Below are positions 4,423 to 42,005 of a DNA stretch of 48,839 nucleotides, in pieces. Below the pieces are notes generated by a model that searched no databases, was not told the origin of the DNA, and was given only the letters and a program-made list of their open reading frames with translations. Position 1 is the first letter of the stretch, and the number at the start of each line of letters is the position of its first letter. Source of the DNA: Candidatus Coproplasma avistercoris. GTDB taxonomy: Bacteria > Bacillota > Clostridia > Christensenellales > Borkfalkiaceae. The stretch spans positions 1 through 48,839 of the forward strand of contig DVIK01000080.1 of assembly GCA_018711385.1 (NCBI GenBank), in the 5' to 3' direction. The translations under genes were made by a program, and so were the position numbers.

Positions 4423-4453
4423 TAAAGTTAATACGATTTTTTATGAAAGGTGA

Positions 4454-13632: not shown

Positions 13633-14316
13633 ATGCAGCAAGTAGGCTATACGGCCATAGATATCGCGAACTGGAGGCGCCGCGGCCAGTACGAAAATTT
13701 CATCGGCTACGACTATCCCGTATTTTCGGTGGCCTCGCGCATAGAGGTGACGGAGCTGGTGCGCTTTTGCAGGCGGCGCGGCCTTTCGGTGTTCAGCACT
13801 ATGCTGTATATAGTGTCGTCCGAGCTCAACGGCATAGAGGAGTTCCGCACCCGCATAACGGGCGGCGTGCCCGTGCTCTTCGATGTCGTCCATCCCAGCT
13901 ACGTGGTGATGTACGACGGCGACAGGATAGCCGGCAAATGCACTCCGTTCGCACGCGATTTCGGCGATTTTTACGCCCGCAACCGCGCCGACATTGCAGA
14001 GGTGCGCGCGCAGAAGGGTTTTGTGCCGTTCGAAGGCGGCTGCGGATGCGGCTGTTTTTACGTCTCATGCCTGCCGTGGCTGGACATGTGCTCCTTCTCC
14101 AATCCCTATAATTTCAAAGACTTGTCGCAGTCGAGCATACCCCGCATAACGTGGGGCAGGATATGCGAAGAGGATGGCAGGGCGTTCGTGTATTTCGACG
14201 TGCAGATGCACCACGCGCTCGCCGACGGATTCCATGCGGCGGAACTCATAAACAAAATAGCCGCGGCGGCAGCCGTCGCCGAGGCATATACAGGGGGAAA
14301 CGGCGATGAAAGATAA
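13633..14316 (+). CDS. Chloramphenicol acetyltransferase-like (CAT superfamily) protein
   Basis: Catalytic-type motif HHALADGFHAAELI near the C-terminus; PRITWGR and overall CAT-like layout. Confidence 0.85.
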   Translation: MQQVGYTAIDIANWRRRGQYENFIGYDYPVFSVASRIEVTELVRFCRRRGLSVFSTMLYIVSSELNGIEEFRTRITGGVPVLFDVVHPSYVVMYDGDRIAGKCTPFARDFGDFYARNRADIAEVRAQKGFVPFEGGCGCGCFYVSCLPWLDMCSFSNPYNFKDLSQSSIPRITWGRICEEDGRAFVYFDVQMHHALADGFHAAELINKIAAAAAVAEAYTGGNGDER

Positions 14317-24904: not shown

Positions 24905-24942
24905 GCGGATAATGCAAAATGATTTATAAATTTTGCGCACAT

Positions 24943-24978
24943 GGCGGCGCGGGCTTCGGCCCGCGCCGCCGGTTTTTT
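24943..24978 (+). terminator. Intrinsic terminator (UUCG loop)
   Basis: GGCGGCGCGGGC-TTCG-GCCCGCGCCGCC followed by GGTTTTTT. Confidence 0.9.
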
Positions 24979-25052
24979 ACTTTCCGGCGCAACGCATCGG
25001 GGCGCTTTCAGTCCCACCAAATTTAGGAAGCGGTAAAATAAGTTTACGAATT

Positions 25053-28000
25053 GTGTATTGCAATAATTCTTTTTTAACGGTGGGCGTATCCGGCATCGCC
25101 ACGGTAACTTCATACAAGGCGATGATCAACACCGTGCTGGGCGGCGAGACTGCGCAGGCAGGCTCTGCCGAGGCATACGCATTTACTTCCGATTACGACA
25201 GTACCACCGAAATGCTTACTGCGCGCAAGGCCGTTGCCGAACAGCTCTCGGAAGAGGGCAGCGTTCTGCTCAAGAACGAAAATGGCGCGTTGCCCCTTTG
25301 GAAGGACGGCGATTCATCGGAGGTAAAAAAGGTAACCGTTCTCGGTTCGCGCGCATACACATACGACAGTAACGGCGGCGTGCGCGATGCCGTGCAGGGT
25401 TCCAGCGGCGGTCTTTCCTTTTACGGAGGCATAACGGGCAGCCGTGTCTATGCCGACACCGTAATGGTGGAAGAGGGTACCATTGATACGCCCATAACTC
25501 TGGAGACGGCGTTTGCCGCGCAGAATATCGAAATAAACCCGGGAATGGTAAACTTCTATTCCGGCAAAAACTTTCCTTCGCCTCCAAACGGAAGCGAGGC
25601 CAGCGGCGAGGCGGGCGTAGGCAACGAAAAGTTTGCCGTAAACGAACCTGCGGTGGCTTACGGCGATATCCCGAACGCCGCAGAATACAGCGACGCCTGT
25701 TTCGTGGTGATAGGCAGGGCGAGCGGCGAGGGCCGCGACTATCGCCCCGGTACGCGCGGAATAACGGGCACCGACGGCGCGAAGAGCGCGTTGCACCTGA
25801 GCGACAGCGAACGCGGACTGATAGAAACGGCAAAGCAGGTCTCCGATAATGTGATAGTGCTTGTAAACAGCGCCGTTGCAATGGAGCTGAAGGAGGTGCA
25901 GGAGGACGACGGCGTAGACGGCATACTGTGGATAGGCCTTCCCGGCGCCTATGGCATGAACGGCGTGGCGCGCCTTGTAAGCGGCGAGGCCTCACCCTCG
26001 GGCCACCTGCCCGATATCTATGCCTCCGACGCCTCTGCTTCTCCTGCTGCACAAAATTTCGGTACCGGCGCGCCCGACGGCACGGGCAGCTTTACGTGGA
26101 GCAACGCCGGCTCTTTTACTCATGCCTACGACAACCACTACGTTGTAATGGCGGAGGGCATATATACGGGCTATTACTATTATGAAACGAGGTATGCCGA
26201 CAGCGTGCTCGGCAATGGCGGCGCAGACGGCGCTACGGGCGCGGGCAGGTATTCCTCTGGCGGCTGGAACTACGCCGACGAGGTAGTTTATCCCTTCGGC
26301 TACGGCCTCTCTTACAGCACGTTTACGCAGCGCCTGCTGCCCGAAACGTTTGTTGCCGACTACGAAAACAAGACCGTATCGGTGGACGTGGAGGTGCAGA
26401 ACACGGGCAACGTCGCAGCAAAGTGCGCGGTGCAGCTGTATGCACAGTCGCCCTATACTCAGTACGATAAAGAACACGGTGTGGAAAAGAGCGCCGTGCA
26501 GCTGGTCGCCATAGGCAAGACGGACGTGCTCGAACCGGGCAGCGAACCTGTGACGCTCACGCTCACCGTAGATATGAAGTACCTTGCCTCTTACGACGAA
26601 AGTTACAGTCACGACAACGTCACCGGCGGCTGGATAATAGAGAATGCCGAATACGGCCTTTCGATAGGCAACGGTGCACACGACGCGCTCAACAACATAC
26701 TCAAGGCACAGGGCGCCGACAGCGGCGACCTGTATGAGATAGACGGCACCATAGCGGCGGAAGGCTATGTCGGTTGGACGCCTTCCTACGAAGGAATAAC
26801 ATTTGACGGAAATGGTGTGAACGGCACGTTCTTCTCGACTACCGAAAGCGGTGGGCTGGTGCAGAATCAGCTGCAGGACGCCGATTACAACTACTATAAC
26901 GAAGGTACGGTCACCTACCTTTCGCGCAGCGACTGGCAGGGCACTTTCCCCAAAAGTTACGGCTCGCTATCCATAGCGGGCGATATGGCGGACAGGCTGG
27001 ACAACAGGGTATATACCTACCGGACGGGCAGCTCCGATATAGAGTTCGGCGTAGACCATACGCTTGAATACGACGAAGACGGCAACCAGCTCGAAAACAT
27101 GTCCGTCGCGGAAATGAAGCTCGCTTCGTTCGACGACGAGCGGTGGGACTACCTTCTGACGCAGATAACGGTGGACGAGGCTTGGTACTTCGCGCCGGAC
27201 GGCGGTTCGCGCTGCCGCGCGCTGTCGTCGGTGAGCGCGCCCGAGGTATGGCAGATAGACGGCCCCAACGGCAGCATCAACCGCACGCTCGGCCAGCGCG
27301 CCCCTTCCGAAGGCACGATGGCAATACCGAGGAGCGACCCCAACTACGGCTACTATACCAGTGATATGTGCTGCCAGCCCGTTACCGCCGCTACGTTCAA
27401 TCTTGAACTTATACGCGAACAGGGCAAGATATACGGCGAGGATACGCTGTGGAACCGCAGCCCCATAATGTGGGCGCCCGGCCTTAACCTTCACCGCACG
27501 CCGTTCAATTCGCGCAATCACGAATATTACAGCGAAGATCCCATGCTTACAAACCTGTGCGGCACGGCGTTCGTGGGCGGCGGGCTGGAAAAGGGAGCCA
27601 TACTTGCGGCAAAGCACTTCGCCTTCAACACACAGGAGACCTACCGCGAGGGCCTTTCGCAGTTCTTCAACGAACAGTCCGGCAGAGAGACGGAGCTGCG
27701 TGCCTTCCAGGGCATAATCGAGGATATCGACTATGTGAACTCGCTCGGCCACACGGTGAACGCGCTCGGACTGATGTCCTCGTTCTCGCGCGTGGGCGTC
27801 ACCGACGGCAACGCGCATACCGGCATGATGAAGGATATCCTGCGCGGCGAGTGGGGCTTCAAGGGGCTTATATCCACCGACTATGTTTCGGGAGATTACT
27901 ACTTCAATCCCACCGACTGCGTGATAAACAACGTCACGTTCATGGCTTACGGCTCTTACAATTCGGCGAACAACTGGACGGAATATAACGCCGCGTCAGT

Positions 28001-28274
28001 TTCGCGCGATCCGAACATGATGCAGGCGCTCTACGACAATATGCACTACTATATGTATTCCATAGCCAATTCAAGCGCGCTCAACGGTTACGATGCGGAC
28101 ACCCCCGTGACCGCCGACGTGAAGGAATGGTGGCAGACTATGTTAGAAGCGTTCACCGGCGTGTTCGCAGTGCTCGGCATAGGCGGCGCGGCTGCGGCAT
28201 GCGTATTGTATGTGCTGGGTGAACGCAAAAAGAGCAATGCGGCTGCAGAGGAGGCGGAAAATGAAACGGCTTAA
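25053..28274 (+). CDS. Glycoside hydrolase family 3 protein, permuted domain order, C-terminal TM anchor (5' end uncertain)
   Basis: GH3 C-domain first (SEEGSVLLKNENGALPL; FVVIGRASGEGRDY), Fn3-like, then N-domain (ILAAKHFAFNTQE; RGEWGFKGLISTDY with putative nucleophile Asp). TM near the end. GTG 25053 has only a weak upstream SD-like AGGAAG. Confidence 0.85.
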   Translation: MYCNNSFLTVGVSGIATVTSYKAMINTVLGGETAQAGSAEAYAFTSDYDSTTEMLTARKAVAEQLSEEGSVLLKNENGALPLWKDGDSSEVKKVTVLGSRAYTYDSNGGVRDAVQGSSGGLSFYGGITGSRVYADTVMVEEGTIDTPITLETAFAAQNIEINPGMVNFYSGKNFPSPPNGSEASGEAGVGNEKFAVNEPAVAYGDIPNAAEYSDACFVVIGRASGEGRDYRPGTRGITGTDGAKSALHLSDSERGLIETAKQVSDNVIVLVNSAVAMELKEVQEDDGVDGILWIGLPGAYGMNGVARLVSGEASPSGHLPDIYASDASASPAAQNFGTGAPDGTGSFTWSNAGSFTHAYDNHYVVMAEGIYTGYYYYETRYADSVLGNGGADGATGAGRYSSGGWNYADEVVYPFGYGLSYSTFTQRLLPETFVADYENKTVSVDVEVQNTGNVAAKCAVQLYAQSPYTQYDKEHGVEKSAVQLVAIGKTDVLEPGSEPVTLTLTVDMKYLASYDESYSHDNVTGGWIIENAEYGLSIGNGAHDALNNILKAQGADSGDLYEIDGTIAAEGYVGWTPSYEGITFDGNGVNGTFFSTTESGGLVQNQLQDADYNYYNEGTVTYLSRSDWQGTFPKSYGSLSIAGDMADRLDNRVYTYRTGSSDIEFGVDHTLEYDEDGNQLENMSVAEMKLASFDDERWDYLLTQITVDEAWYFAPDGGSRCRALSSVSAPEVWQIDGPNGSINRTLGQRAPSEGTMAIPRSDPNYGYYTSDMCCQPVTAATFNLELIREQGKIYGEDTLWNRSPIMWAPGLNLHRTPFNSRNHEYYSEDPMLTNLCGTAFVGGGLEKGAILAAKHFAFNTQETYREGLSQFFNEQSGRETELRAFQGIIEDIDYVNSLGHTVNALGLMSSFSRVGVTDGNAHTGMMKDILRGEWGFKGLISTDYVSGDYYFNPTDCVINNVTFMAYGSYNSANNWTEYNAASVSRDPNMMQALYDNMHYYMYSIANSSALNGYDADTPVTADVKEWWQTMLEAFTGVFAVLGIGGAAAACVLYVLGERKKSNAAAEEAENETA

Positions 28275-28725
28275 AATAAAAAAGCCCGGCATCGGCTTTT
28301 ATCTGCTTGCGGCGTCAATGCTGTTTACGGTTATAGGTTTCTGCTACTTCTTTTCCTCCTACGATGTGTTCGGCTTTGTATACAGCCGCACGGTCATAGC
28401 GCTCACGGTGCTTGCGCTGTGGTCTATGATAGTGTTGCTCGCCGGCGCGCTCTATAACGGCGAAAGGCCGCTGTGGCTGGCGGCGTTCTACCTGATAATA
28501 GTGTTCGGACTGGCCGTTTCGGCGGTGGAATTCATAAAGCCGGGCCTCGGTAATATAGCTACATATTTCACTGTAAACATGGGCGATATGGAGACCTACG
28601 CCGTGGCGGTGCCGCAGACGATAACCGGTGTGGCGATGTACGCCGTGGCTGCGGTGCTTGCCATAGCGGCGTCCTTCTTCCGCATTACTCTCCGTTCCGC
28701 AGAGGAGAAGGGGGACAGAGCATGA
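28261..28725 (+). CDS. Hypothetical multi-TM membrane protein
   Basis: ATG overlaps the GH3 end. About 4 hydrophobic segments (FYLLAASMLFTVIGFCYFF; VIALTVLALWSMIVLLAGALY; etc.). Confidence 0.75.
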   Translation: MKRLKIKKPGIGFYLLAASMLFTVIGFCYFFSSYDVFGFVYSRTVIALTVLALWSMIVLLAGALYNGERPLWLAAFYLIIVFGLAVSAVEFIKPGLGNIATYFTVNMGDMETYAVAVPQTITGVAMYAVAAVLAIAASFFRITLRSAEEKGDRA

Positions 28726-29768
28726 AAGTTTTGCAGGCAGTAAAAGATTTTGTTTCACACAACAGGCGCAATGTAATAATCTATGGCGCAGTAATAATCG
28801 TTACCATCGTGCTTGCCGTTCCCCTGCTTGTATGGGCGGGCGGAAGCACCCCGGTTGGCGAACTCATATATGCCCCCGCAACGGTGAAGCTGCGCGAGGG
28901 TATGCGTACCGAGTACCTTGTGAACGAGACTATTTCTCCCGAGGACTACTCCTTAGAGCTGGAAGACGGAACGGTCATAGACGGCGCGGACTGCACGGTG
29001 GAGGCGGACATGACCTCCGCGGGATTAAAGAACGTGCAGGTCAGCTGGCAGGAAGGCGACACCGTGCACAGCGGTACATTCCCCGTAAAGGTGTTCGGCG
29101 TGCGCCACATAAGCATAGAAGAATATCCCTCGCAGTACTGGATAGACGCGAACGGCAGCCCCGTATTTACGGGCAGCGACCAGCTTGTGGTATGGGCGGA
29201 GCTCACGGGCGAACCCACCGAATTTGCATTGCCCGCCGAACACCCCGACTGGACGACCACAGTGGTGCTCGAACCGGAGATGTACTCCGTCTCCTGCACC
29301 GCCACGACCGAGGGCAGTGCATTTGAGGTAAAGTGCGGCAACGTCAGCACCGGCTTCGCGCTGATAGATAACGGTCAGGGCGGTACAATGTCGCTGCCCA
29401 TGCAGAGCATGTCGCATTACGTTTCTTTCGATAACGTTTCCGGCGGTGCGGAAACGCTTACTCTGTACATAGAGCAGGCGGAGCGCAACACCGAGGACGG
29501 CGATGCCGAAGGATCGCGTGCGCGCGGCACATATGTATATACCGCGGCAGACGGCACGGTCACCACTTACAGGTTTGAATACTATCTGCAGGGCTGGTCG
29601 AGCAATTTCCTCTCGGCGGCGCTTAATAACTGGGCCGTACAGGACGGTGTGGACGACGCCAACTGGGGCGGCGACATGCGTGTGACGGTGACTGTGAATT
29701 ACGTAAGCACCGTATTCCGCGGCGCGCGTGCAGACTGGCATTTTGCCGTGCTCGACAACAGGGCATAA
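28722..29768 (+). CDS. Membrane-anchored extracellular protein with Ig-like region and shared 'LTLYI' domain
   Basis: N-terminal TM NVIIYGAVIIVTIVLAVPLLVWAGG. AETLTLYIEQAERNTED...GTYVYTAADGTVTTYRFEYYLQGWSSNF resembles segments of the ORFs at 32447 and 36298. Confidence 0.75.
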   Translation: MKVLQAVKDFVSHNRRNVIIYGAVIIVTIVLAVPLLVWAGGSTPVGELIYAPATVKLREGMRTEYLVNETISPEDYSLELEDGTVIDGADCTVEADMTSAGLKNVQVSWQEGDTVHSGTFPVKVFGVRHISIEEYPSQYWIDANGSPVFTGSDQLVVWAELTGEPTEFALPAEHPDWTTTVVLEPEMYSVSCTATTEGSAFEVKCGNVSTGFALIDNGQGGTMSLPMQSMSHYVSFDNVSGGAETLTLYIEQAERNTEDGDAEGSRARGTYVYTAADGTVTTYRFEYYLQGWSSNFLSAALNNWAVQDGVDDANWGGDMRVTVTVNYVSTVFRGARADWHFAVLDNRA

Positions 29769-29780
29769 GGAGGCGGAAAA

Positions 29781-30473
29781 ATGAAAAAGGCGCTTAAAAT
29801 AATTGTTTTTGCCGCCGCGCTGTGCGGTTCGGCAACGCTCTTTGCCGCCTGCGGAGACGGGGAGGAAAAACCTGACCCCTCGTCGTACAGCACACTCACT
29901 GGAAACTTCGATTATTCGGAACAGCTCGCCTGCATCGTCAATCAGCCGGCGGCAGACAGGACAACTCTCACCAGCACTGTATATCCTGCGGCTCAGGATG
30001 GTGCTCTCGTAGATTATGTCATCAATGCACGCTTAAAGCTCGTGCGTGACTATACCTATACATATACATACACCATAGATCTGCGCAACAGCGGATGGGC
30101 GGATGCCGCCGTTACGGTAGAGGCTGAATTTACGGGCACGTATACTTATCTGCCCCGCGCAGAAGCTGGCGAAGGACAGTATGAAGTATCGCTCTCGGCT
30201 CCCGCGGGTGGCACATTTTCGGTGACGGGTGCAAATATGTATTCTTACATGAGCGGCAGCGGACTGAATAAGTGGACACAGCACGAAACTCCCGACCTCG
30301 TGCTCGACATCTCCGCGGGGCTCGACTCACTCGCCGCGCAGGGCTATGACATTTCGGATTATTGTAAGGCGAAGGCGGTCAATGTCGATACTGCCGAAAA
30401 GCAGCTCTCGGGCGACAGTCTGTTCTTTGCGGATATCCTGGATTTCACTGCGCCATACAATACCTATCAGTAA
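29781..30473 (+). CDS. Lipoprotein, unknown function
   Basis: MKKALKIIVFAAALCGSATLFAACGDGEEK lipobox. Confidence 0.8.
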   Translation: MKKALKIIVFAAALCGSATLFAACGDGEEKPDPSSYSTLTGNFDYSEQLACIVNQPAADRTTLTSTVYPAAQDGALVDYVINARLKLVRDYTYTYTYTIDLRNSGWADAAVTVEAEFTGTYTYLPRAEAGEGQYEVSLSAPAGGTFSVTGANMYSYMSGSGLNKWTQHETPDLVLDISAGLDSLAAQGYDISDYCKAKAVNVDTAEKQLSGDSLFFADILDFTAPYNTYQ

Positions 30474-30474
30474 A

Positions 30475-32427
30475 ATGAAAAAGATAATTCTGCTCACACT
30501 TGCCCTCATAAGTACGTTCTGTCTTGCCCTTGCGTTCGGCTGCAGGCCGGACGGGGGCGGACAGGGCGGAACTGAAGGCGCAAACATAATTTGGAGCGGA
30601 ACGGAGGGCGCGACCTCCTACGATATCTATCGGGCGCCCTCCCGCTTCGGGAACTATGCCCTCATCGCGGAAGACGTGCGCGGCACGGGGTATAAGTACG
30701 ATGATTATAAATTCACCGACTATTACAGGATAGTCGCCCGCAGGGGCGACGCCGTGCTCGGCGGCGAACTCGTAGGCGGCGAACTTGAACTGTTCGGCGA
30801 AAACGTGTATATCTTTTCCCCTTCGGACGACCCCGGGGACGTCGCCCGCGTTATAGAGAACGCATACGGGGAGCAGGAGGAGGCGCATTTCACCTCCGCG
30901 CGCTACGCCTTTTACTTCAAGCCGGGCGAATATTCCGATGAAATAACTCTCTCTGCGGGCTTTTACACCACATTTTCCGGCCTGGGCAGGTCGGCGGAGG
31001 AGGTAAGCCTGCGCACGCTGCGGTGCACCGACACATGGAACACCAACGCGCTGATAAATTTCTGGCGCGGCGCAGAAAATCTCAGCTTTCGCAGCGACAT
31101 ACTGTGGGCCGTTTCGCAGGGTTGCTACCTGCGCGGCATAGATGTTTCGGGCGGCGCCAATCTCTGGCACACGGGCGCGTCCAGCGGCGGATTCATGGCA
31201 AATTCAAGTTTTACCGGCTCCGTAAACTCGGGCTCGCAGCAGCAGTGGCTCTCGCGCAACAGCAGCTGGGGCGGCTGGCAGGGCAGCCTGTGGAATATGG
31301 TGTTCGCGGGCAACGCGGAGGGCTGCTCGCCCTCGGACGGCTGGGAGGACGGCGCATGGAACACCGTCGTCGATGCCGTGCCCGCCATACGCGAAAAGCC
31401 CTATCTCATATTCGAGGACGGCGCGTACAGCGTGTTTGTCCCCTCTTTAAGGACGGACAGCTCGGGGCTGTACCTGCCCGAAGAGGACGGGGAAGCGCGG
31501 GTGATACCCCTTTCGGACTTCTATGTGGCAAGGGAGGGCGACAGCGCGAAAACGCTGAATGCCGCGCTCAAAGATGGCATGCATCTGCTGCTTACCCCGG
31601 GCATATACACTCTCGAAGAGCCTCTCTCCGTCGCAAACGACGGCACGGTGGTGCTCGGCGCCGGGCTTGCCACGCTCGTGCCCGCAAACGGACAGGGCTG
31701 CATGATGACCTCGGGTGAAGACGTCACCGTCGCGGGGCTGCTGTTCGACGCGGCCGACAGCGACTTTCTGCTGAAAGTGCAGGGCGGCAGCGGCGCGCAG
31801 CGCATACTGCTTGCCGACTGCTTCTTCCGCGCGGGCGGGGCTAGCGACGCCTCGACGCGCGTCGGCACCTGCCTTGTGATAGAGGCGGACGGCGTGGTGG
31901 CGGACAACATCTGGACGTGGCGCGCCGACCACGGCCATCGCTGGCGCGAACAGGCAAACTCGCTTGCGGGCGTCGGCTGGGAGGTGAACAGGGCGGATAC
32001 GGGCGTAGCGGTATACGGCGACGACGTGACTTTCTACGGGCTGTTCTCCGAACACTTCCGCAAAAACAACGTATATTGGGCGGGCAACGGCGGCAAGGTC
32101 ATTTTCTTCCAGAGCGAGATAGCCTACGACATACCCGCGGGCGGCGACGGCGGCAGCGCGGCGCAGATCTCGTTTTTCGTGGACGGAAACGTGACCTCGT
32201 TCAGAGGCACGGCGATGGGCGTATATACCCATTTCTGGAACGGCGGCGTGGTGCTCGATTGCGGCATATCCGTGCCCGATTCGGCGGGCGTAACGCTTGA
32301 AAACGTGGTGGCGATAGCCCTTTCCGCGAACAACGATTCTCATCTTACAAACGCAGTAAACAACGTCGGCGGCGTTGTGGGCGCGGGCAGCACTCAGGTG
32401 CGCGTGCCTGCATATCCCGCGGCGTAA
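30475..32427 (+). CDS. Lipoprotein with right-handed beta-helix (pectate-lyase/GH55-like) fold
   Basis: MKKIILLTLALISTFCLALAFGCRPDGG lipobox. DNIWTWRADHGHRWREQANSLAGVGWEVNRADTGVAVYGDDVTFYGLFSEHFRKNNVYWAGNGGKVIFFQSEIAYD resembles beta-helix proteins with W-RADHG motifs. Start re-set from 30346. Confidence 0.75.
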   Translation: MKKIILLTLALISTFCLALAFGCRPDGGGQGGTEGANIIWSGTEGATSYDIYRAPSRFGNYALIAEDVRGTGYKYDDYKFTDYYRIVARRGDAVLGGELVGGELELFGENVYIFSPSDDPGDVARVIENAYGEQEEAHFTSARYAFYFKPGEYSDEITLSAGFYTTFSGLGRSAEEVSLRTLRCTDTWNTNALINFWRGAENLSFRSDILWAVSQGCYLRGIDVSGGANLWHTGASSGGFMANSSFTGSVNSGSQQQWLSRNSSWGGWQGSLWNMVFAGNAEGCSPSDGWEDGAWNTVVDAVPAIREKPYLIFEDGAYSVFVPSLRTDSSGLYLPEEDGEARVIPLSDFYVAREGDSAKTLNAALKDGMHLLLTPGIYTLEEPLSVANDGTVVLGAGLATLVPANGQGCMMTSGEDVTVAGLLFDAADSDFLLKVQGGSGAQRILLADCFFRAGGASDASTRVGTCLVIEADGVVADNIWTWRADHGHRWREQANSLAGVGWEVNRADTGVAVYGDDVTFYGLFSEHFRKNNVYWAGNGGKVIFFQSEIAYDIPAGGDGGSAAQISFFVDGNVTSFRGTAMGVYTHFWNGGVVLDCGISVPDSAGVTLENVVAIALSANNDSHLTNAVNNVGGVVGAGSTQVRVPAYPAA

Positions 32428-32446
32428 AAAAAAGGGGGCAACCTAT

Positions 32447-35092
32447 ATGAAAATTTTCAGAATTTTTGCAGTATCTGCAGCATGTGCAGCGGCGGCGTGC
32501 GTATTTGCATTCGCAGGCTGCGGTGATGGCGGCGGGGACGAGGTAAAGCTCGAATCCCTTTCGCTGGATACTTCCGCCGTAAAGGTGGAGTATGTCCTCG
32601 GCGAGGCGTTCTCGGCGCAGGGGCTTAAAGTAAGCGCGGTATATTCGGACGACACTTCAAAGGAGGTCGCCGATTATACTATAACCCCTCCCGATATGTC
32701 CTCCATCGGCGAAAAGCAGGTGGAGGTAAGCTACACCGAATCGGAAACGACCGTTACGGCGAATTACAAAATAACGATCAGCGAAAGCGTCCTTCCTCCG
32801 GAGGAGCAATCTGCACTCCGCCTCGACCTCACTGAAGTACAGCGCGAATTCCAGCCGGGTGAAGCATTCACTGCGGCAGGGCTCAAAGTATTCTTAAAGG
32901 ACGGCGAGGATGAGACCGGGCTTGCCGAAGGCGAGGGCGGCTATACCGTTACCGCTCCTGAATTCAGCGGTGCGGGCGCCTATACGGTAACTGTAACTTA
33001 CGGCGAAGACAGCGCTCAGTACACTGTTGCCGTAATTCCCGACGTCGACGAGGATATGACGATCGGATTTGTCAGCAGGGACGAAAACGCTTCGCTCACG
33101 CTGTACATAACCGAGCGTATGCCCGATAAGAGCACCAACACCACCGATTCCACGGCAAAGGGCATATACATCTACAAAGACGCGAGCGGCTATCAGTCGT
33201 TCAACTTCGATTTCGCCTATGTTGCTTCGGGTTGGGCGAGTCAGTTCAACACCGTAGGCGTGTATGAAACCCCCTTCAATGATTTCTGGAGCGAGGATAA
33301 CAGCGCGCTGTTTGTAGAGCTGGGCGACGAAACCAAGGGCGTGGAGGCAATGCGCTTCAAGGCGAGCGGCAACGAATGGCACACCAAGGTACTCGGCTGG
33401 ACGGAAGTCGCCTCGATAGATAAAGTTACCATTCCCGAGGACAAGGTGTTCAGCGCCAATCTTCCGTTCGACGGTACGGGCATAATTATAGATTACACTC
33501 TCACCGACGGTCAGAAGGGTCAGATAACCGCGACCGAAGCCAACATAAATGACGGCACGATACAGTTCTTCGACTGCGAAACGCGCGAAAGCATGAGAGC
33601 GGATGACTACGATCTCGTCGTGGGCGAACTGGAAATGCGCGTCATGTACGACAGTAAAGTGTTCGATATAACCATCGAGGTGACCGAAGGTACGGCATAC
33701 CTTGAAATTTCCGGCGGCACGCGCACGTTTACTGAGGGCGACACGCCTTCCGCAGCGGGACTGGTCGTTACCTTAATAGATGAAAACGGCGTTGCAAAAC
33801 AGCTTCCTGAGGGCGAAGGCGGATATACCGTCACGCTGCCCACGGCAGAGCAAATGAAAACGCCGGGCACCTATAAAGTAACTGTAACTTACGGCGAGCT
33901 CTCTGTCTCCTACGATATAACTGTAAATCACAACTTTACTTCTTCACGCGATGAAGACGGTACGTTCCACCGCACCTGCAGTTCCTGCGGGTACAGCGAA
34001 GAGGTGGAAGTTTACGGCGACAGAAAGGTAAGCATAAACGGCACGGATTTCTTCCCCGCAACGGGCTATGATTCGGCAAACGCGGCATACGGCGTAACTT
34101 ATGATGTTTCCAAAGGCGAAATGGACGCCGAGTTCGTCATAACGCTCACTGCCGAAAATACGGGAGCAGGCGGCGTCTATGCGGAAGGGCTGAATATCGC
34201 TACGGCCAATAATAACGTCATAGTCAATTTCGAAGAGGGTGCAGCAAAGATAAACGTAAACGTAACGCCCAACGGAGCCAACACGGTAACGCTTAACATT
34301 GCGCAGAATATGGCCGTGGGCACTGTAAATTTCGGCGACGGTTCGAACGGCGTAAACGCAATCGTCGCGGTAATCAATGTCGGGGCAAATTCCTCGGTCG
34401 ACGCAATAAGCATGGCTATATTCAAAGGAGTGAACCTCTCGCTTGCCGACGGCGCTCATGTGGGCAATTATACCACAGTGGATGACCATCACGAGATAAT
34501 TGAAGTCAGCGGCGAGGCTTCCATTGGTACCATAACTATAAACGGCAGTAACGGCTCCACGACTGTTCAGGGCACCGGCTGCCTTACCGTGGAAAACTTT
34601 GTGGATCAGGGTAAGGGTTCGTTCAACGTGCTTGCCGACATGGTATTCACAAATCCGCTCATGGTGCGCAACTTCAATATCGGCAACGAGGCCGGCACCG
34701 TTACACCTGAAGTATATGTGCATATAAATGCAGAGGCAAACGGCATAGGCGGCGTGAGTGGCGGTTCCATGCAGGTGCGCGTGCTCAGCGGTACGCTTAC
34801 AGTACACAACGACATGAACGCTTATTCGGGCGTCAACTTCGGTGCACCCGGCGACCGCATGTATATCGCCGAGGGTGCAACCGTAAACGTAGTCAACTTC
34901 GGCGCGGCATACGGCGTATGGGGCGGCTCGCAGTACTACCTGCAGGTCGAAGGCACGTTCAACGCCTACGGCTGCGGCGCTCCTCAAAACAATTCCGAAG
35001 CCGCCTCGTCTGACCAGGCAGGCACTTATGTGGGTGAAAACGGCGCATATAACGGTGAACTTGCGCTTGAAGACTGGCAGGGCGCCGAATAA
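32447..35092 (+). CDS. Lipoprotein with bacterial Ig-like (Big_3-type) domains and shared 'LTLYI' plus C-terminal beta-rich module
   Basis: MKIFRIFAVSAACAAAACVFAFAGCGDGG lipobox; VEYVLGEAFSAQGLKVSAVYSDDTSKEVADYTI Ig-like units. Extensive similarity to the ORF at 36298. Confidence 0.82.
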   Translation: MKIFRIFAVSAACAAAACVFAFAGCGDGGGDEVKLESLSLDTSAVKVEYVLGEAFSAQGLKVSAVYSDDTSKEVADYTITPPDMSSIGEKQVEVSYTESETTVTANYKITISESVLPPEEQSALRLDLTEVQREFQPGEAFTAAGLKVFLKDGEDETGLAEGEGGYTVTAPEFSGAGAYTVTVTYGEDSAQYTVAVIPDVDEDMTIGFVSRDENASLTLYITERMPDKSTNTTDSTAKGIYIYKDASGYQSFNFDFAYVASGWASQFNTVGVYETPFNDFWSEDNSALFVELGDETKGVEAMRFKASGNEWHTKVLGWTEVASIDKVTIPEDKVFSANLPFDGTGIIIDYTLTDGQKGQITATEANINDGTIQFFDCETRESMRADDYDLVVGELEMRVMYDSKVFDITIEVTEGTAYLEISGGTRTFTEGDTPSAAGLVVTLIDENGVAKQLPEGEGGYTVTLPTAEQMKTPGTYKVTVTYGELSVSYDITVNHNFTSSRDEDGTFHRTCSSCGYSEEVEVYGDRKVSINGTDFFPATGYDSANAAYGVTYDVSKGEMDAEFVITLTAENTGAGGVYAEGLNIATANNNVIVNFEEGAAKINVNVTPNGANTVTLNIAQNMAVGTVNFGDGSNGVNAIVAVINVGANSSVDAISMAIFKGVNLSLADGAHVGNYTTVDDHHEIIEVSGEASIGTITINGSNGSTTVQGTGCLTVENFVDQGKGSFNVLADMVFTNPLMVRNFNIGNEAGTVTPEVYVHINAEANGIGGVSGGSMQVRVLSGTLTVHNDMNAYSGVNFGAPGDRMYIAEGATVNVVNFGAAYGVWGGSQYYLQVEGTFNAYGCGAPQNNSEAASSDQAGTYVGENGAYNGELALEDWQGAE

Positions 35093-35244
35093 CTTGATTA
35101 CCCGTTTCAGCTAAATTCCCGCCATACGGCTCAAGCGTTGCCGGAGTGAATTACCGGCGGGCAGTCCGCCTTTATAACGGCATAACTGATCTTGCCCGGA
35201 TCATTCAAATATCAAAAAACTTATTGATTCTGGAGGAAAATTAA

Positions 35245-35706
35245 ATGAAGGCAACCACTGCCAAAAAAATACTTATCGGCGCGGTGGCGGCGCTGTGCGT
35301 GACCGCCATTGCCGGCGTCACCGCTCTCGCGGTCTATCAGAGCCGCACCCTCAATGCCGACAACACCCTTACCGTGGGCAAGGAAGTCGACACCGTAGTT
35401 ATAAGCGGCGGCGAAGATCATACAACGCCGCTCTATCCGGGCGACAGCGCGACTTTCACCTACGATATCGACCTCACAGGCCATACTGCCGACGATGTTA
35501 CGATAAGCTGGGAACTTAAAGACGAAGGCGAGAGCAATGTGGATAGTGACTTTACCGTAACGGCAATGCAGACGGAAGCAGTTCCGGAAAACGGCGCCGT
35601 TGAAGACGGTTCTATCATCATTACCGTAACGATGAACGAAAGGGAGAGCGCGCCCGAATATAATACAGTTACCCTCTCCGTATTGCTTACGGTTGCTGGG
35701 GAATAA
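35245..35706 (+). CDS. Small TasA/camelysin-like protein with SipW-type signal peptide
   Basis: KKILIGAVAALCVTAIAGVTALAVYQSRTLNADNTLTVGKEVDTVVISG has the layout of SipW-dependent signal peptides (long hydrophobic core, then a short N-T-x-x-x-G segment). SD GGAGG. Confidence 0.65.
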   Translation: MKATTAKKILIGAVAALCVTAIAGVTALAVYQSRTLNADNTLTVGKEVDTVVISGGEDHTTPLYPGDSATFTYDIDLTGHTADDVTISWELKDEGESNVDSDFTVTAMQTEAVPENGAVEDGSIIITVTMNERESAPEYNTVTLSVLLTVAGE

Positions 35707-35827
35707 GGGCACTAATTCCAAAACAGGCAAACACGGTTCGGGCAATATCGTTTTTCCGGAATGTCGAGGCGGGGAGGAAACTCCCTGCCAAAGGCGTTTT
35801 TACCGCATGGAAAGGAGGCGGCATTAA

Positions 35828-36286
35828 ATGAAGAAAAAATTGGCGGCGCTGGCATTTGCGGCCGTATGCGCGCTGGGGCTTGCCGCGGGCTGCGGCGACG
35901 GCGAAGAGCAGCCGATAACGCTGAGTTTCGACAGTCAGACGGCGTACTTCACATCGCAGACGGAGCTTTACCCGATAGCGGGCGAGGTCCCCGCCGACGG
36001 CGACGCGGTAGAGAGCGCAACTGTCAGGATAAGTTCGGACGCTGCCGTGCGCATGGTGCTCAGGGTGGTCTACGACGAAGGACAGCAGGATATCCCGGGG
36101 CTGGTCGTCTCGGTGAACGGAGGCACCGCTTCAGACTTTGCAGACGGCATGGCGCTGTATACCAGCCCGAAGGCGGAGACCTCCGCCGAAGTAGGGCTGC
36201 AGATATGGCTGGAAAAGGATTCGCCCGCAGCAAATGCGGGCAGGACGCTCGGCTTTTCGCTCGAGCTTTCGGCACTTGAAGAGTGA
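35828..36286 (+). CDS. Small lipoprotein, unknown function
   Basis: MKKKLAALAFAAVCALGLAAGCGDGEEQ lipobox. Confidence 0.8.
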   Translation: MKKKLAALAFAAVCALGLAAGCGDGEEQPITLSFDSQTAYFTSQTELYPIAGEVPADGDAVESATVRISSDAAVRMVLRVVYDEGQQDIPGLVVSVNGGTASDFADGMALYTSPKAETSAEVGLQIWLEKDSPAANAGRTLGFSLELSALEE

Positions 36287-36297
36287 GGAGAGGTAAG

Positions 36298-39252
36298 ATG
36301 AATAAAAAAAGGACTATAGTTGCGCTGGCAACGGTGTGCGCGCTGTCTGTGGCGGCGAGCGTGGGCACTGCCGTTTATGCCTATTACGTAAGGCACCAGC
36401 TCAACAGCCGGAACACTTTACAGATCGGCAATGCGCAGATGTTTCTGACCGACGAGGGCGGGTCGGACTCTGCCATATTCAGCGCGGACCTTACGCCGCT
36501 GACGGGCGGACAGTTTGCGCCCGAAACTTACGCGCAGGCGACGGAACTCGCCGCGCAGGACCCCGCCGGCGTTGCCCAGGCAAAGTTCAACGTCTCGCGC
36601 GAGGTGCAGAGCCCCATATTTTACGGGCTCGAGCTGCTCACGGGTGAATATCCGAATTCCGCCGCGCTGCTCGGCAATGTATACGTCACCTGCTTTGCGC
36701 TCAACGCAGAGGGCACCGACGGCACGCTCACCGGGTGGAGCCACGTCGCGCTGGAAGACGCGGGCTATATCGAAGGCAATATGGGCGAGGGCAGAGTCAC
36801 ATACCATATGTTCATAACTTACGAAAACACTGCGGGTGCGGGCACGGGCAGCGTGCAGTTCGATATTTCGCTACAATCGAGCCCCGCTCCGCTCACCGCC
36901 GAATACGATATATCCGCCGTAGAATCGGAAATCGAGGTGGAGGGCGCTTCAGGCGAGGCCACCCTCATTGCCGAGGCATGGTACGGCGGCAGCGACGGCT
37001 ATAAGATAATGCAGGGCGGCAGCGAGCTATACAGCGGCACGGGCACCCTTGCGGACGGCTGGCAGACTATAAGAGTTGACGGAGTCAATTTTGACGAAGG
37101 CAGGGCAACGCTTTCGCTGCAGGGCGAAGGGACGCTCTACCTTAAAGATCTGCGCACAATGGCGCTGGAGAGCATCACCGTAGACGCCTCCGGGGTGCAG
37201 ACGCTGTTCACGGCGGGCGGTACGTTCGGTTACGACGGCCTCGAAGTTACCGCGCACTATACCGATGGTTCCGAATCGCTTATCTATAGCGGCTTTGATG
37301 TAGTCGCCGACATATCCGCCGCGGGCGTAAAGCAGGCCACGGTAACTTACGGCGGCAAGCAGGCCGGATATCAGATAGCCGTGGTTCCCGATGTCGCAGA
37401 CGAAGAAAGGGATGTCATAGAGTTTACCAATTCAAAAGCCGACGACGCAAGCCTCACTCTGTATATAAGCGACCGCGCGGGCGGCGGCAGCAATGAAGAA
37501 AGCGCCACGATGAGCGGCATGTACCTGTACAGCGACGGGGAAGGCTATAAAATGTTCGGCCTTGAATTCAGTTATACCATGCCCGGCTGGAAGAGCGAAT
37601 TTGCAAGCGAGGGCATATCCGAGGCAGTGCTCAACGATATCTGGAGCGATAACAACGGCGCGCTATTCGTGGAGTTGGGCGACGACGAAAAGGACGTGGA
37701 GGCAATGCGCTTCAAGGTGAGCAGCAACGAATGGCACGCCAAGTTCATGGGCTGGACGGAAACTAAGGAGATAATCAAAGTTACTGTCCCCGAAGATAAG
37801 CAGTTTATCGCGGGCAGCGTATTCGACGGCACAGGCATCACCATAAATTATACCCTCACCGATGGCCGGAACGACAATATAGTTGCCACCGCCGAAAACA
37901 TTGCCGATGGCACGATACAGTTCTACGATGCCGAAACGCGCGAAAATCTCAACAGCTATGGTAAAGAACTCGAGGCGGGCACTCTCAAAGTCCGCGTGCT
38001 GTACGACAGTAAGGTGTTCGACATAGAGATAACCGTTTCCGACGACTCTGTTACGGGCATACGGGCGGACGCTTCCGGCGCAAAGACGCAGTTTTTGCAC
38101 GGCGAGACCTTCTCGTCCGACGGGCTTGCGGTCTACGAGGTATATGCAAGCGGCAGGCAGGTAGCCGTCGATGGCTTTGAAGTGCAGGCGATCGAAGATC
38201 TCGGTTCGCTCACCGGCGAACAGTCCGTCAAGGTAACTTACGACGGGCACGAGACGGCTTACAGCATTAACGTAGGTCACAACTACACCTCTTCGCGGTA
38301 CGAGGCGGGCGTCGACGGCGCCAACGGTACTTTCTACCAAATTTGTGTCTGTGAACACGAAGAGCGTGTGGAAGTTTACGGCAATCGAAAGGTAACGATA
38401 AACGGACAGGCTTTTGATTCGCCTTATGCATGCTACGATGAGCAGTTCGCCGGTTACGGCATAGAGTATGACGTAACAAAGGGTGGCGATAACGCCGAGT
38501 TCGTTATAACACTCACCGCCGAAAACACGGGCGAGGGCGGCGTCTATGCGGACGGGCTGAACATTACCACGTTCAATAACAATGTTGTTATAGAAGTCGC
38601 TGAGGACGTGACTATACCGTCGTTCAATGCAAGTATAGATTTGGGACACAACAATGTATCTGTCACTATTCGCGGTGCGGGTAAACTTACCGTGACCAAC
38701 GAATTTATATCAACTCTCGATAATCTTGTGATTTTGTCGGACGTAAGCACTACCTGCACATTTAAGGTGGCAAACCTTACGTTTGGTGCGGAGGACGGCT
38801 CCGTTGCGCCTGAACTTTATATACTTGTAGACGGCGCGGTAAACGGCGTTGAAACCAACACGTTCAGCGACAGTGGCTACAACGGTATGGACTGGAAACT
38901 TTACAGCGGTACTGTTACATTGGAAAACAAGCAGGCGGCAAATCCTGCGTTCAGTATGAATACCGCTGGCGGCAGCCTGTATATCGGCGTAAACGCAACG
39001 CTCAACAGTGTGGGTTTTGTTGCGGCTTACGGGATATGGGACGGAGCGCAGAATAATTACCGCGTGGAAGTTTACGGCACATTTAATGCTTACGGCACTA
39101 ATCAGACTCCGCCCAACGTGGTTTCCGGCGCTGATCCTGATGCGGCTACGGGCACATATGTAGCAGACGGCGCCACATATCAGGTAACAGATCTTCCGCT
39201 TGAAGACTGGGCCGGGAGCAGCGGCGGATCGTCCGAAGATGTTACGGAATAA
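36298..39252 (+). CDS. Large secreted protein with SipW/TasA-type N-terminus, Ig-like domains and shared 'LTLYI' plus C-terminal module
   Basis: MNKKRTIVALATVCALSVAASVGTAVYAYYVRHQLNSRNTLQIGNAQMFLTDE (TasA-like N-terminus). C-terminal two thirds paralogous to the ORF at 32447. Confidence 0.8.
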   Translation: MNKKRTIVALATVCALSVAASVGTAVYAYYVRHQLNSRNTLQIGNAQMFLTDEGGSDSAIFSADLTPLTGGQFAPETYAQATELAAQDPAGVAQAKFNVSREVQSPIFYGLELLTGEYPNSAALLGNVYVTCFALNAEGTDGTLTGWSHVALEDAGYIEGNMGEGRVTYHMFITYENTAGAGTGSVQFDISLQSSPAPLTAEYDISAVESEIEVEGASGEATLIAEAWYGGSDGYKIMQGGSELYSGTGTLADGWQTIRVDGVNFDEGRATLSLQGEGTLYLKDLRTMALESITVDASGVQTLFTAGGTFGYDGLEVTAHYTDGSESLIYSGFDVVADISAAGVKQATVTYGGKQAGYQIAVVPDVADEERDVIEFTNSKADDASLTLYISDRAGGGSNEESATMSGMYLYSDGEGYKMFGLEFSYTMPGWKSEFASEGISEAVLNDIWSDNNGALFVELGDDEKDVEAMRFKVSSNEWHAKFMGWTETKEIIKVTVPEDKQFIAGSVFDGTGITINYTLTDGRNDNIVATAENIADGTIQFYDAETRENLNSYGKELEAGTLKVRVLYDSKVFDIEITVSDDSVTGIRADASGAKTQFLHGETFSSDGLAVYEVYASGRQVAVDGFEVQAIEDLGSLTGEQSVKVTYDGHETAYSINVGHNYTSSRYEAGVDGANGTFYQICVCEHEERVEVYGNRKVTINGQAFDSPYACYDEQFAGYGIEYDVTKGGDNAEFVITLTAENTGEGGVYADGLNITTFNNNVVIEVAEDVTIPSFNASIDLGHNNVSVTIRGAGKLTVTNEFISTLDNLVILSDVSTTCTFKVANLTFGAEDGSVAPELYILVDGAVNGVETNTFSDSGYNGMDWKLYSGTVTLENKQAANPAFSMNTAGGSLYIGVNATLNSVGFVAAYGIWDGAQNNYRVEVYGTFNAYGTNQTPPNVVSGADPDAATGTYVADGATYQVTDLPLEDWAGSSGGSSEDVTE

Positions 39253-39312: not shown

Positions 39313-39390
39313 TTGTGCAGAATTTAGTTTTCATGGACGGAGGAATGTGCTATAATGGTGCTTGAAAAGAATGTAAGGGACGGAATTTTG

Positions 39391-40104
39391 ATGCGCGTCG
39401 TAATAGTGGAGGACAACAACGAGGATGCAAAGCATCTCACCGACTGCCTGAATAAATTTTCAAAGAGCCACGGCGTGGAATTTCAGATCGTGCGTTTCGA
39501 CAATGCCAACGACTTCATGGCGGAACGCAAGCTGATGGCAGACCTTGTGTTCATGGATATCCTCATGCCCGGCACCGACGGCATGGCGGCCGCCGAGTAT
39601 TTCCGCAAATTCGACAGGCACACCCGCCTGATATTCGTCACCAACATGGCAAAGTATGCCATAAAGGGATATTCCGTCGATGCGATAGATTTTATCTTAA
39701 AACCGGTAAAATACAGCGATTTCGAGGTGAAGATGCGCAAGGTGGTCGAGCTTATCCGCACCGATCCCGACGACCACATCGTGGTAACCAACATCGACGG
39801 ACTGAACAGGATCTCCGTGCGCACGCTGTATTATGTTGAGATCATAGGGCATAAACTTGTATACCATACCCCGGGCGCCGACGTCGTTTCGCACGGCACG
39901 CTCTCCAAGGTGGAGGAGCAGCTCAGGTCCTACTCCTTTCTGCGCTGCAACAGCTGTTATCTCGTAAACCCCAAATTCATCGAGGCTGTCGACGGATTCG
40001 AGATCAGAATGACCAACGGCGATGTGTTGCAGATAAGCCACCCTCGTAAGGCCCGGTTCATGCGCGAGCTTGCCGAGTGGATGGGTAAAGGTAATTTCGT
40101 TTAA
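39391..40104 (+). CDS. LytTR-family response regulator
   Basis: MRVVIVEDNNEDAKHLTDCL...LVFMDILMPGTDGMAAAEYF; LytTR part RCNSCYLVNPKFIEAVDGFEIRMTNGDVLQISHPRKARF. Start re-set from 39355. Confidence 0.93.
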   Translation: MRVVIVEDNNEDAKHLTDCLNKFSKSHGVEFQIVRFDNANDFMAERKLMADLVFMDILMPGTDGMAAAEYFRKFDRHTRLIFVTNMAKYAIKGYSVDAIDFILKPVKYSDFEVKMRKVVELIRTDPDDHIVVTNIDGLNRISVRTLYYVEIIGHKLVYHTPGADVVSHGTLSKVEEQLRSYSFLRCNSCYLVNPKFIEAVDGFEIRMTNGDVLQISHPRKARFMRELAEWMGKGNFV

Positions 40105-41399
40105 TGGGCGATTTCATTGAATTTCTCAATCTGCACGGTTATATAATCGAGCTGGTGTTCAGCATATTTATCTTTGCCGTGCATTTCCCCCGGCGCAGGA
40201 TGTTCGCATTGCGCGCGGCGGGCAGCTTTCTGTTGCTGTGCGCTATTTCGGCGTTCTGGGCTTATGCCATAGGCGAGCGCGAAGTGCTCTTTGCGGGGCT
40301 GGAGATAGTGCCCGTAATAAAGTTCGTGCTCTATTTCGCGCTGTCGGTGGGGATGATATTCTTTTGTTTCGAGCGCAGTTTTTCGCTCAGCCTGTTCACG
40401 GGCATAGCTGCATACTCGGCGCAGCACGGTTCTTACAAGCTGGGCGAGCTGATAAGGCGCGCCCTGCCCCAAAGCGTGCCCTCGGCATGGGGCGGAGTTA
40501 TATATTTCCTGATAATAGCTGCGGCATATGTGGCCATCTATTTCATTTTCAGGCGCAGTTTCAGGGACATAGAAAAGGACTATATCCCCGGTCGTCAGGC
40601 GGTTTTGCTGGCAGTACCGCTCGTTCTGTACACCACCGTATTTCAGTATTCCAGTGCGCTGGATTTTTCACTTTACGTCATCTATGCACTCTACGATATA
40701 CTGTGCTGTTTCTTCACGCTGTATATCCAGTACAGCCTTATAAAGGCGGGCAGGCGCGAGCATGAATACAGGCTGTTCCAGCACCTGCACCATCTCGAAA
40801 AGCAGCAGTACGACATCACAAAGAAGAACATGGAGATGTTCGACATAAAGATGCACGACGTAAAGCACATGCTGCTGGGCATGCGCAACATCCTTACCCC
40901 CGAACAGATCGCCGAGATAGAAAAGGTGGTCACCATCTACGACAGTACCGTAAAATCGGGCAACGAAGTGCTCGACGTCATCTTCACCGAAAAGAGCCTG
41001 CAGTGCGAGCAGAAGGATATATCCTTCGAGCGGATAGTCGACGGCAGCCTGCTGCGCTTCATGCACGTCTCCGACGTGTATTCGCTGTTCGGCAACGCCA
41101 TAGACAACGCCATAGAGGCCGTCTCCAAAGTGGATAAAAGGGAAAAACGTACCGTCAGCTTAATGGTGCGCGAGTCGCGCGGCATGGTGTATATCGGGCT
41201 GGAAAACGGATATACCGGCACCATCGAGTTCGAAGATGGCTTGCCGGTAACCACCAAGCATGATAAGCAGTTTCACGGCTTCGGCACCAAGAGCATGCGC
41301 AATGTGGTGGAGAAGTACGGCGGGACAATGGTGATAAACGCAAGCGACAATATTTTCAGGCTTAACATCCTTTTGCCGGTGCCCGGGGCAAAGGTGTAG
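40104..41399 (+). CDS. GHKL-type sensor histidine kinase (AgrC-like)
   Basis: Overlaps the regulator stop (TAATG). N-terminal multi-TM, H-box MHDVKHMLLGMRN, N-box LFGNAIDNAIEAV, G-box HGFGTKSMRNVVEKYGG. Confidence 0.92.
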   Translation: MGDFIEFLNLHGYIIELVFSIFIFAVHFPRRRMFALRAAGSFLLLCAISAFWAYAIGEREVLFAGLEIVPVIKFVLYFALSVGMIFFCFERSFSLSLFTGIAAYSAQHGSYKLGELIRRALPQSVPSAWGGVIYFLIIAAAYVAIYFIFRRSFRDIEKDYIPGRQAVLLAVPLVLYTTVFQYSSALDFSLYVIYALYDILCCFFTLYIQYSLIKAGRREHEYRLFQHLHHLEKQQYDITKKNMEMFDIKMHDVKHMLLGMRNILTPEQIAEIEKVVTIYDSTVKSGNEVLDVIFTEKSLQCEQKDISFERIVDGSLLRFMHVSDVYSLFGNAIDNAIEAVSKVDKREKRTVSLMVRESRGMVYIGLENGYTGTIEFEDGLPVTTKHDKQFHGFGTKSMRNVVEKYGGTMVINASDNIFRLNILLPVPGAKV

Positions 41400-41414: not shown

Positions 41415-42005
41415 GTGCGGGCTGTTGAAATTGAAACGGAATACTCCGAAAGGCTGGAAGAGAGGCGCGACCCCGACGGCGATTTTTACGGCACGGTGCG
41501 CTTTCTTTTGGGACTCACCGCAGTGTTCCTGGCTTTCGTGGCGATATTCACCAACGTCCTCATCGGCGTACGCGTCAGCGGCGATTCGATGAATCCCACG
41601 CTGCACGGCGGCGACTACCTGTTCATATACGCCTGGGGCGAACCCGACTACGGCGACATAGTGGTGTTCGAGCACGGCAACGAGGAATACATCAAGCGCG
41701 TGGTAGGCCTGCCGGGCGACACCGTGTGGGCAGAGGACGGCGTGCTCTGGCGCGCGGGCGCGGACGGTCAGCCCCATACGGTCGAAGAGCCGTATATAAT
41801 AGAGGGCTGGACGGGCGATATACGCCCGACGGAGGTGCCGGAAGGCTGCATGTACGTGCTGGGCGACAACCGCGTGAACAGCACCGACAGCCGCTCGTTC
41901 GGGCCGGTGGATATGGAGCTTTTGAGCGGCGTGGTTACGGGCTGGTCGCTCTCCGCGCGCTCGTCCATAACGCGGATAATGGACTTCATCACGTTCAGGT
42001 GGTAA
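41415..42005 (+). CDS. lepB: Type I signal peptidase (S26, Ser/Lys type)
   Basis: VSGDSMNPTLHGGDYLFIY; YIKRVVGLPGDTVW; VLGDNRVNSTDSRSFGPV. One N-terminal TM. Confidence 0.93.
   Translation: MRAVEIETEYSERLEERRDPDGDFYGTVRFLLGLTAVFLAFVAIFTNVLIGVRVSGDSMNPTLHGGDYLFIYAWGEPDYGDIVVFEHGNEEYIKRVVGLPGDTVWAEDGVLWRAGADGQPHTVEEPYIIEGWTGDIRPTEVPEGCMYVLGDNRVNSTDSRSFGPVDMELLSGVVTGWSLSARSSITRIMDFITFRW

Follow-up and report, generated by a model that had tools for sequence, protein, structure and literature searches.

Domain X, a predicted beta-barrel inherited with one clade of GH3 enzymes in a putative surface glycan-degradation operon of uncultured gut Clostridia

The protein domain referred to here as X, about 110 residues in length, is the hallmark of a predicted surface glycan-degradation operon found in Candidatus Coproplasma avistercoris, an uncultured gut bacterium of the class Clostridia. 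The operon lies on the forward strand within positions 24933–42005 of contig DVIK01000080.1 (assembly GCA_018711385.1), of which positions 1–48,839 were analysed and are hereafter called the window. Three of the encoded proteins carry X: a signal-anchor protein (TM-X, 28722–29768), a lipoprotein (32447–35092) and a secreted protein (36298–39252). The presence of GH3 and GH55 glycoside hydrolases in the same operon points to extracellular glycan breakdown, which was overlooked in the initial annotation of this DNA, where the X proteins were taken for co-assembling parts of a surface structure. We lean towards a reading in which the X proteins are non-catalytic and X binds the glycan or fragments of it.

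The X domain and its predicted fold

The observation that the three open reading frames share a domain was borne out, the coordinates and the quoted segments both being exact. Within the window, BLASTP aligned TM-X with the secreted protein at E 2e-4 and with the lipoprotein at E 6e-4, and Smith-Waterman scores were 83–108 as compared to shuffled means of 40–47 (standard deviation roughly 6–7; top of 300 shuffles 74). The first copy occupies the C-terminus of TM-X (29394–29765, residues 225–348), while the second (33047–33412) and third (37396–37755) are internal to the lipoprotein and the secreted protein, respectively. The latter two proteins are paralogous well beyond X, their alignment extending past 500 residues (44% identity, E 1e-118). 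A profile of 47 copies matched exactly three sites in the 1.38-Mb assembly at E 1e-27 to 1e-30. The strongest columns of this profile are an LTLYV strand, a G-Y-Y/V-Y strand, a turn glycine, several F/Y positions and a WH near the C-terminus, with W115, F108, F72 and Y63 as conserved aromatics. Copies of X are otherwise highly divergent (15–53% identity to the first copy) and are repeated one to four times in each of the proteins of relatives.

The three membrane topologies were likewise as claimed when read from the sequence. TM-X starts with basic residues (K/K/R/R) followed by a single transmembrane segment, the pattern of a signal anchor that would place X outside the cell. The lipoprotein has an FAGC lipobox, and the secreted protein has a cleavable signal peptide and is devoid of a lipobox, an LPXTG motif and a C-terminal transmembrane segment.

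X was also confirmed to be uncharacterised, as it had no match in Pfam, NCBIfam or the PDB. Scans with Pfam and NCBIfam resulted in matches to the Big_3 domains beside X and in none to X itself, and a profile search of the PDB with X gave no matches at E<=10. An AlphaFold2 model computed from 47 divergent sequences with no ligand (pLDDT 89, pTM 0.84) predicts a small beta-barrel of roughly eight strands followed by a C-terminal helix. Foldseek returned no match to this model at E<=0.001, nor any among viral proteins (BFVD) at the same threshold. The best matches, at E 0.03–0.04 and TM-scores of 0.35–0.46, were below significance, with lipocalins and designed beta-barrels as the nearest folds. 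Assignment of X to the immunoglobulin-like (Ig-like) Big_3 domains or to a carbohydrate-binding module (CBM) was accordingly rejected from the Pfam, NCBIfam, PDB profile and Foldseek results. A known generic Ig or CBM family, which the initial annotation had raised as a way in which its proposal could fail, does not account for X, which merely adjoins Big_3. No literature describing X was found in a limited open-access search, which does not establish its absence from the literature. Judged from these searches and the predicted model, X is a previously undescribed small domain, modelled as a beta-barrel, that is neither Ig-like nor a known CBM.

Inheritance of X with one clade of GH3 genes

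Conservation of the locus was evaluated by scanning across GTDB with the GH3 protein. This resulted in 79 loci that fell into two groups by score, above 1500 and below 930 bits. Group A (clade A) comprises 29 loci in 23 genomes besides the window's own and group B (clade B) 50 loci in Lachnospiraceae, Bifidobacterium and others. The group-A genomes are all metagenome bins or uncultured isolates, several of their contigs end within the operon, and all proportions rest on samples of genomes. A four-transmembrane protein (TM4) and TM-X were found in 29 of 29 group-A loci, TM4 being fused to GH3 in one of these. X was seen in 28 loci, the remaining one being truncated where its contig stops. LP230, a lipoprotein of about 230 residues, followed TM-X in all 27 loci with room for it. 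A GH55 gene lay downstream in 10 of the 29 and an X-bearing lipoprotein was encoded in 10 of the 29. Group B in turn had TM4 in 46 of 50 loci and X, TM-X, LP230 and GH55 in none. X thus accompanies the clade-A GH3, is never found with clade B, and marks one GH3 clade. The initial annotation had also allowed for hits scattered with no conserved neighbourhood; the neighbourhood proved to be strongly conserved.

The closest counterpart was found in a congener, G018. One of its contigs carries GH3, TM4, TM-X, LP230, GH55 and a lipoprotein with X in this order and runs to the contig end, and another starts with a small lipoprotein followed by a secreted X protein, a LytTR regulator and a GHKL kinase. 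An apparently wide distribution, with 40 of 101 relatives matched, was driven by Big_3 and was discarded; a search with X alone left 2 of 93 congeners, namely the genome of the window and G018. X was further found in 7 of 396 genomes sampled over the order, mostly with several X genes per cluster, and in 2 of 391 over the class, these being the window's own and one member of its family. In a phylum sample of 398 genomes X was present in none except the window's own. A MobL-type relaxase and two large serine recombinases form a mobile island at 274–6232, to the left of the operon in the window, and this may explain the patchy distribution of X. The MoxR/DUF58/BatA genes seen beside the operon in two genomes (G417 and G302) are missing from the GH3-centred loci and were treated as incidental.

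A tree of X sequences places the copies of the window's lipoprotein and secreted protein together with two secreted proteins of G018 in one clade (ultrafast bootstrap/SH-aLRT support 99/96), and only the TM-X copy falls in the old anchored lineage. As the lipoprotein and secreted copies form one recent clade, the three topologies seen in the window come from two lineages of X. In G018 the lipoprotein at the corresponding position bears a different type of X, placed at the extreme C-terminus. Rather than an independent third presentation, the window lipoprotein may have arisen locally as a duplicate of the secreted protein that was given a lipoprotein signal. The secreted form itself is confined to the window genome and G018 (2 of 93 congeners) and occurs in no other clade-A locus. 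G018 encodes a third paralogue of this secreted protein, which has a sub-threshold match to CBM_6 (E 9e-6).

This distribution bears directly on the arrangement that was proposed initially, in which X proteins co-polymerise as a membrane base, a lipid-anchored linker and a released subunit. The parts of the proposal that stood are that X is uncharacterised, exposed at the surface in different ways and embedded in a conserved neighbourhood; a structural surface assembly was not upheld, and its three-part architecture is not conserved: the anchored X protein occurs in 29 of 29 loci, lipoprotein X in 10 of 29 and secreted X in two genomes only. Co-polymerisation would be in keeping with three topologies at one locus, with the paralogy of lipoprotein and secreted protein, and with a second small exported protein (35245–35706), the N-terminal 76 residues of which resemble the start of the secreted protein (34%, E 3e-5). 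Against it stand the rarity of the secreted form, the glycosidases encoded in the operon and the lack of a sortase motif in 36298–39252. The SipW/TasA-type label given to the secreted protein was not supported either: NCBIfam gave no TasA or SipW-cognate signal-peptide profile match at E<=10, including at the N-terminus, and no TasA structure was matched. The signal peptidase I encoded at 41415–42005 matched TIGR02227 (bacterial, E 4e-35) far better than TIGR02228 (archaeal/ER-type, E 6e-4), so there is no ER-type (SipW) peptidase in the locus. We therefore regard co-polymerisation as highly improbable. The expected co-occurrence with downstream genes was found for the two-component pair, which is adjacent in G018. 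It was not found for the signal peptidase, which lies away from the homologous genes in G018, is in no related GH3 locus and is probably not a part of the module.

Enzymes, candidate substrates and the role of X

The first enzyme of the operon, encoded at 25071–28274, is a GH3 beta-glucosidase in which the domains are permuted so that GH3_C precedes GH3_N; it also has a Fn3-like domain and a C-terminal transmembrane segment. GH3_N and GH3_C scored 54.5 and 85.3 bits against Pfam cut-offs of 27 and 31, the protein resembles solved beta-glucosidases in a PDB profile search, and its identity to relatives is 50–83%. In 28 of 29 clade-A loci the GH3 protein has a transmembrane segment at both ends. 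Although the frame in the window stays open from 24933 onwards, the N-terminal segment of the relatives is unreadable in it. In another frame, within 25000–25080, a short hydrophobic sequence, CIAIILF followed by a stop, immediately precedes a TTTTTT run, after which comes the homologous frame. A frameshift or an assembly fault at the 5' end is possible. Directly downstream lies TM4 (28261–28725), the constant partner of GH3. The two are fused as one open reading frame in G441 (L072 16481–19999 / L085 9941–13606), which is evidence that they act together.

The second enzyme, encoded at 30475–32427 and predicted to be a lipoprotein (FGC lipobox), had no Pfam match on its own. An alignment of six homologues, however, matched SacteLam55A (4PEW/4PEX/4TZ1) at E 1e-164, with 526 residues aligned across both beta-helix domains. 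The working residues of SacteLam55A have been named (PMC10637969) and were read from the alignment (chain number + 44). Those kept are Glu502, Tyr505, Glu480, His481, Asp449, Trp444, Trp446, Ser198, Gln174 and Phe152, of which Glu502 is the general acid and Tyr505 its helper. By homology the protein is a GH55 enzyme of the beta-1,3-glucanase type with a double beta-helix. Two further GH55 genes are present in the window's genome (G000:C1:5228-7192 and G000:C45:3269-5230).

According to the reading that we favour, the membrane-anchored GH3 with TM4 and the lipid-anchored GH55 would trim beta-glucosidic chains outside the cell, the substrate being a beta-1,3/1,6-glucan (for example laminarin, callose or fungal cell wall material), and in relatives possibly rhamnose-containing beta-glucosides. 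GH3, TM-X, LP230, GH55 and the X lipoprotein would face outward at the membrane, and the secreted X protein would leave it. X would be held on Ig-like stalks at differing distances from the membrane, close to it in the signal-anchor protein and on a longer stalk in the lipoprotein, while the secreted form may coat the substrate. X would then bind the glycan or its fragments in the manner of surface glycan-binding proteins (SGBPs) or CBMs and hold substrate and enzymes together. Substrate binding is favoured because X copies are diversified, often tandem and carried on Ig stalks, and because one relative has a CBM-like domain. The confidently modelled barrel with its conserved aromatics also speaks for it, as do the other sugar enzymes near clade-A loci, with homologues of GH55 in 12, GH78 in 10, RhaA in 7 and GH128 in 6 of the 29.

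Several observations weigh against this reading. X has no counterpart among CBM families or solved structures, and the folds nearest to its model are lipocalins, the ligands of which are small and hydrophobic. Its conserved aromatics could belong to the core of the domain. No transporter was identified in the window's operon between 24933 and 42005. Thr149 of SacteLam55A, a residue of subsite -1 and of the proton relay, is Leu in all six GH55 relatives. GH55 is absent downstream in roughly two thirds of the clade-A loci, meaning that beta-1,3-glucan is not the general substrate. As to position 149, it is Glu in the fungal endo enzyme and varies across GH55, so that homology stands and specificity may differ.

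There is one main alternative with regard to substrate. GH55 speaks for beta-1,3-glucan at the window locus, and the enzyme could instead be a rhamnosyl-beta-glucosidase or an altered exo-glucosidase in a locus that scavenges rhamnoglucosides such as rutinosides or saponins. GH78 and rhamnose catabolism would then use the released rhamnose, and this would be compatible with either role of X, substrate binding or docking. GH55 does include a hesperidin 6-O-alpha-rhamnosyl-beta-glucosidase, EC 3.2.1.168 (PMC10637969), and the exchange of Thr149 for Leu fits such a shift. GH78 was found in 10 of the 29 clade-A loci and in 23 of the 50 clade-B loci. RhaA was found in 7 clade-A loci, and of the eight X genomes with RhaA, four have it no further than about 6 kb from X. 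Genes for RhaB, RhaA, RhaD, GH78 and an MFS_2 symporter directly follow the X operon in G346. RhaA is, however, common in the genus (27 of 93) and is on another contig in the window genome and in G018. Furthermore, GH128, a beta-1,3-glucanase family, is present in 6 clade-A loci, and the GH55 profile is nearest to a laminarinase. Rhamnoglucoside scavenging is therefore considered a minority possibility, and the module as a whole appears to serve glycan or glycoside breakdown with the exact sugar varying by locus.

With respect to the role of X, the chief rival to glycan binding is that X is a protein-protein docking module that unites GH3-TM4, LP230, the lipid-anchored GH55 and the secreted X protein at the cell surface with no sugar contact. 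This would apply the earlier idea of co-assembly to an enzyme complex and not to a filament. It fits the strict co-inheritance of TM-X, TM4 and LP230 with one GH3 clade, the repetition of X in the proteins of relatives and its location at the far end of Ig-like stalks with three anchoring types at one locus. No cohesin- or dockerin-like partner was, however, found on GH3 or GH55 and neither enzyme carries X, and the divergence of X suits diversified ligand binding equally well. We consider docking rather unlikely as the role of X.

A sensory role of X and TM4 was weighed as well, in which X binds released sugar and signals through the membrane to a LytTR response regulator (39388–40104) and an AgrC-like GHKL histidine kinase (40104–41399). 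This pair follows the secreted X protein both in the window and in G018, and of the 50 clade-B GH3-TM4 loci, 33 have LytTR regulators and 29 have GHKL kinases. Clade B, however, has the regulators without X, and clade A mostly has X without regulators (response regulator in 1 and histidine kinase in 2 of 29), so that X is very unlikely to be a sensor of this kind. The LytTR/GHKL pair probably regulates the operon, by analogy with group B where the glycosidase genes keep the same company. Group B also has an MFS_2 symporter in 39 of its 50 loci, within 1.5 kb of GH3 in 28 of these. GH3-TM4 with MFS_2, LytTR, GHKL and GH78 thereby appears as a widespread glycoside module (L106–L157), for which no description was found.

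Other genes of the window and comparison with known systems

The operon is set apart from the preceding gene by a strong hairpin resembling an intrinsic terminator (24942–24971, forward strand; 13 pairs, of which 12 G-C, followed by TTTTTT), which closes the upstream unit. That unit ends with an exported protein of 1791 residues (19529–24904) with a long coiled-coil part and a C-terminal transmembrane segment, for which Pfam gave only matches of a low-complexity type; the opposite strand holds an open frame of 1021 residues. From 28261 to 35092 the genes of the operon overlap or are 1–20 bp apart. TM-X has two Ig-like regions between its N-terminal transmembrane segment and the C-terminal X. 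LP230 (29781–30473) belongs to a conserved family with no Pfam or PDB match, and its AlphaFold2 model (pLDDT 85) has no solved relative. The suggestion that LP230 is a distant X was rejected (hhalign probability 1%). At three loci (L102 15176–18280, L098 16864–20022 and L080 4286–7366) the LP230 domain is fused to about 800 further residues, and these long proteins (1034 residues) again had no match in Pfam or the PDB. The lipoprotein and the secreted protein both combine Big_3 domains and X with a long C-terminal region, the secreted protein in addition having an N-terminal domain assigned to no family. Between them, after the small exported protein, a small lipoprotein of 152 residues is encoded (35828–36286) with a homologue at the same place in G018. 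Further upstream in the window, a protein with a CAP12/Pycsar-type TIR domain (14306–15652, E 1.5e-9) is possibly an anti-phage effector, and its gene adjoins that of a CAT-like acetyltransferase (13633–14316).

Individual components of the operon have known relatives from which they depart. The GH3 enzyme shares the Fn3-like domain and the order of GH3_C before GH3_N with domain-permuted beta-glucosidases and differs from these by transmembrane segments at both ends, as seen in relatives, and by a constant partner of four transmembrane segments. The GH55 enzyme is homologous to SacteLam55A (PDB 4PEW, 4TZ1), with the general acid and most subsite -1 residues in common, and differs in its lipid anchor, an N-terminal extension and Leu at position 149. 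Big_3 (PF07523) forms the stalk adjoining X in both the lipoprotein and the secreted protein, whereas X itself is unmatched and has another predicted fold. The X model bears a weak Foldseek likeness to lipocalin-like small beta-barrels (Ex-FABP, E 0.03, TM-score 0.35), with neither a significant match nor sequence similarity.

At the level of the whole locus, the closest comparison is to Gram-positive polysaccharide utilization loci (gpPULs), defined as a polysaccharide-degrading enzyme together with a carbohydrate transport system and a transcriptional regulator (Sheridan et al. 2016, PMC5320581). The window operon resembles these in its clustered glycosidase genes (GH3, GH55) and a regulator in a gut Firmicute, the control exerted by LytTR/GHKL from downstream being presumed. 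It differs in having no transporter, which some relatives do have (e.g. MFS_2 in L071), and in its dedicated proteins, anchored as well as secreted, which are non-catalytic and share a new domain. Without a transporter, the window locus may work like a gpPUL and is not filed as one.

The X proteins are in turn reminiscent of SusD, SusE/F and the surface glycan-binding proteins of Bacteroidetes, with which they share a lipid or membrane anchor, a multi-domain build of an Ig-like stalk and a terminal domain, and a place beside surface glycosidases. They differ in being Gram-positive and in having no sequence or detected fold relation, and their binding is predicted. A study of Blautia producta (PMC10318527) observes that gpPULs are without surface glycan-binding proteins of the SusD/SGBP type and rely on CBMs fused to enzymes, which leaves a role that X proteins could fill. 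How polysaccharides are held at the surface of Gram-positive gut bacteria is less understood than in Bacteroidetes, and the X family, strictly inherited with one GH3 clade on three types of stalk, is a concrete candidate for the missing binder. The bacteria that carry it are uncultured and belong to the gut and rumen communities of animals. Further leads from the operon are TM4 and LP230, two more families without a name, and a lipid-anchored GH55 whose active site is altered. Taken furthest, and put forward tentatively as a bolder proposal than binding as such, X might be a new beta-barrel glycan-binding domain unrelated to CBMs, and GH3-TM4-TM-X-LP230, as a complex of a membrane-embedded glycosidase and binding proteins, the dedicated Gram-positive counterpart of the SusD/SGBP systems in uncultured gut Clostridia and Bacilli.

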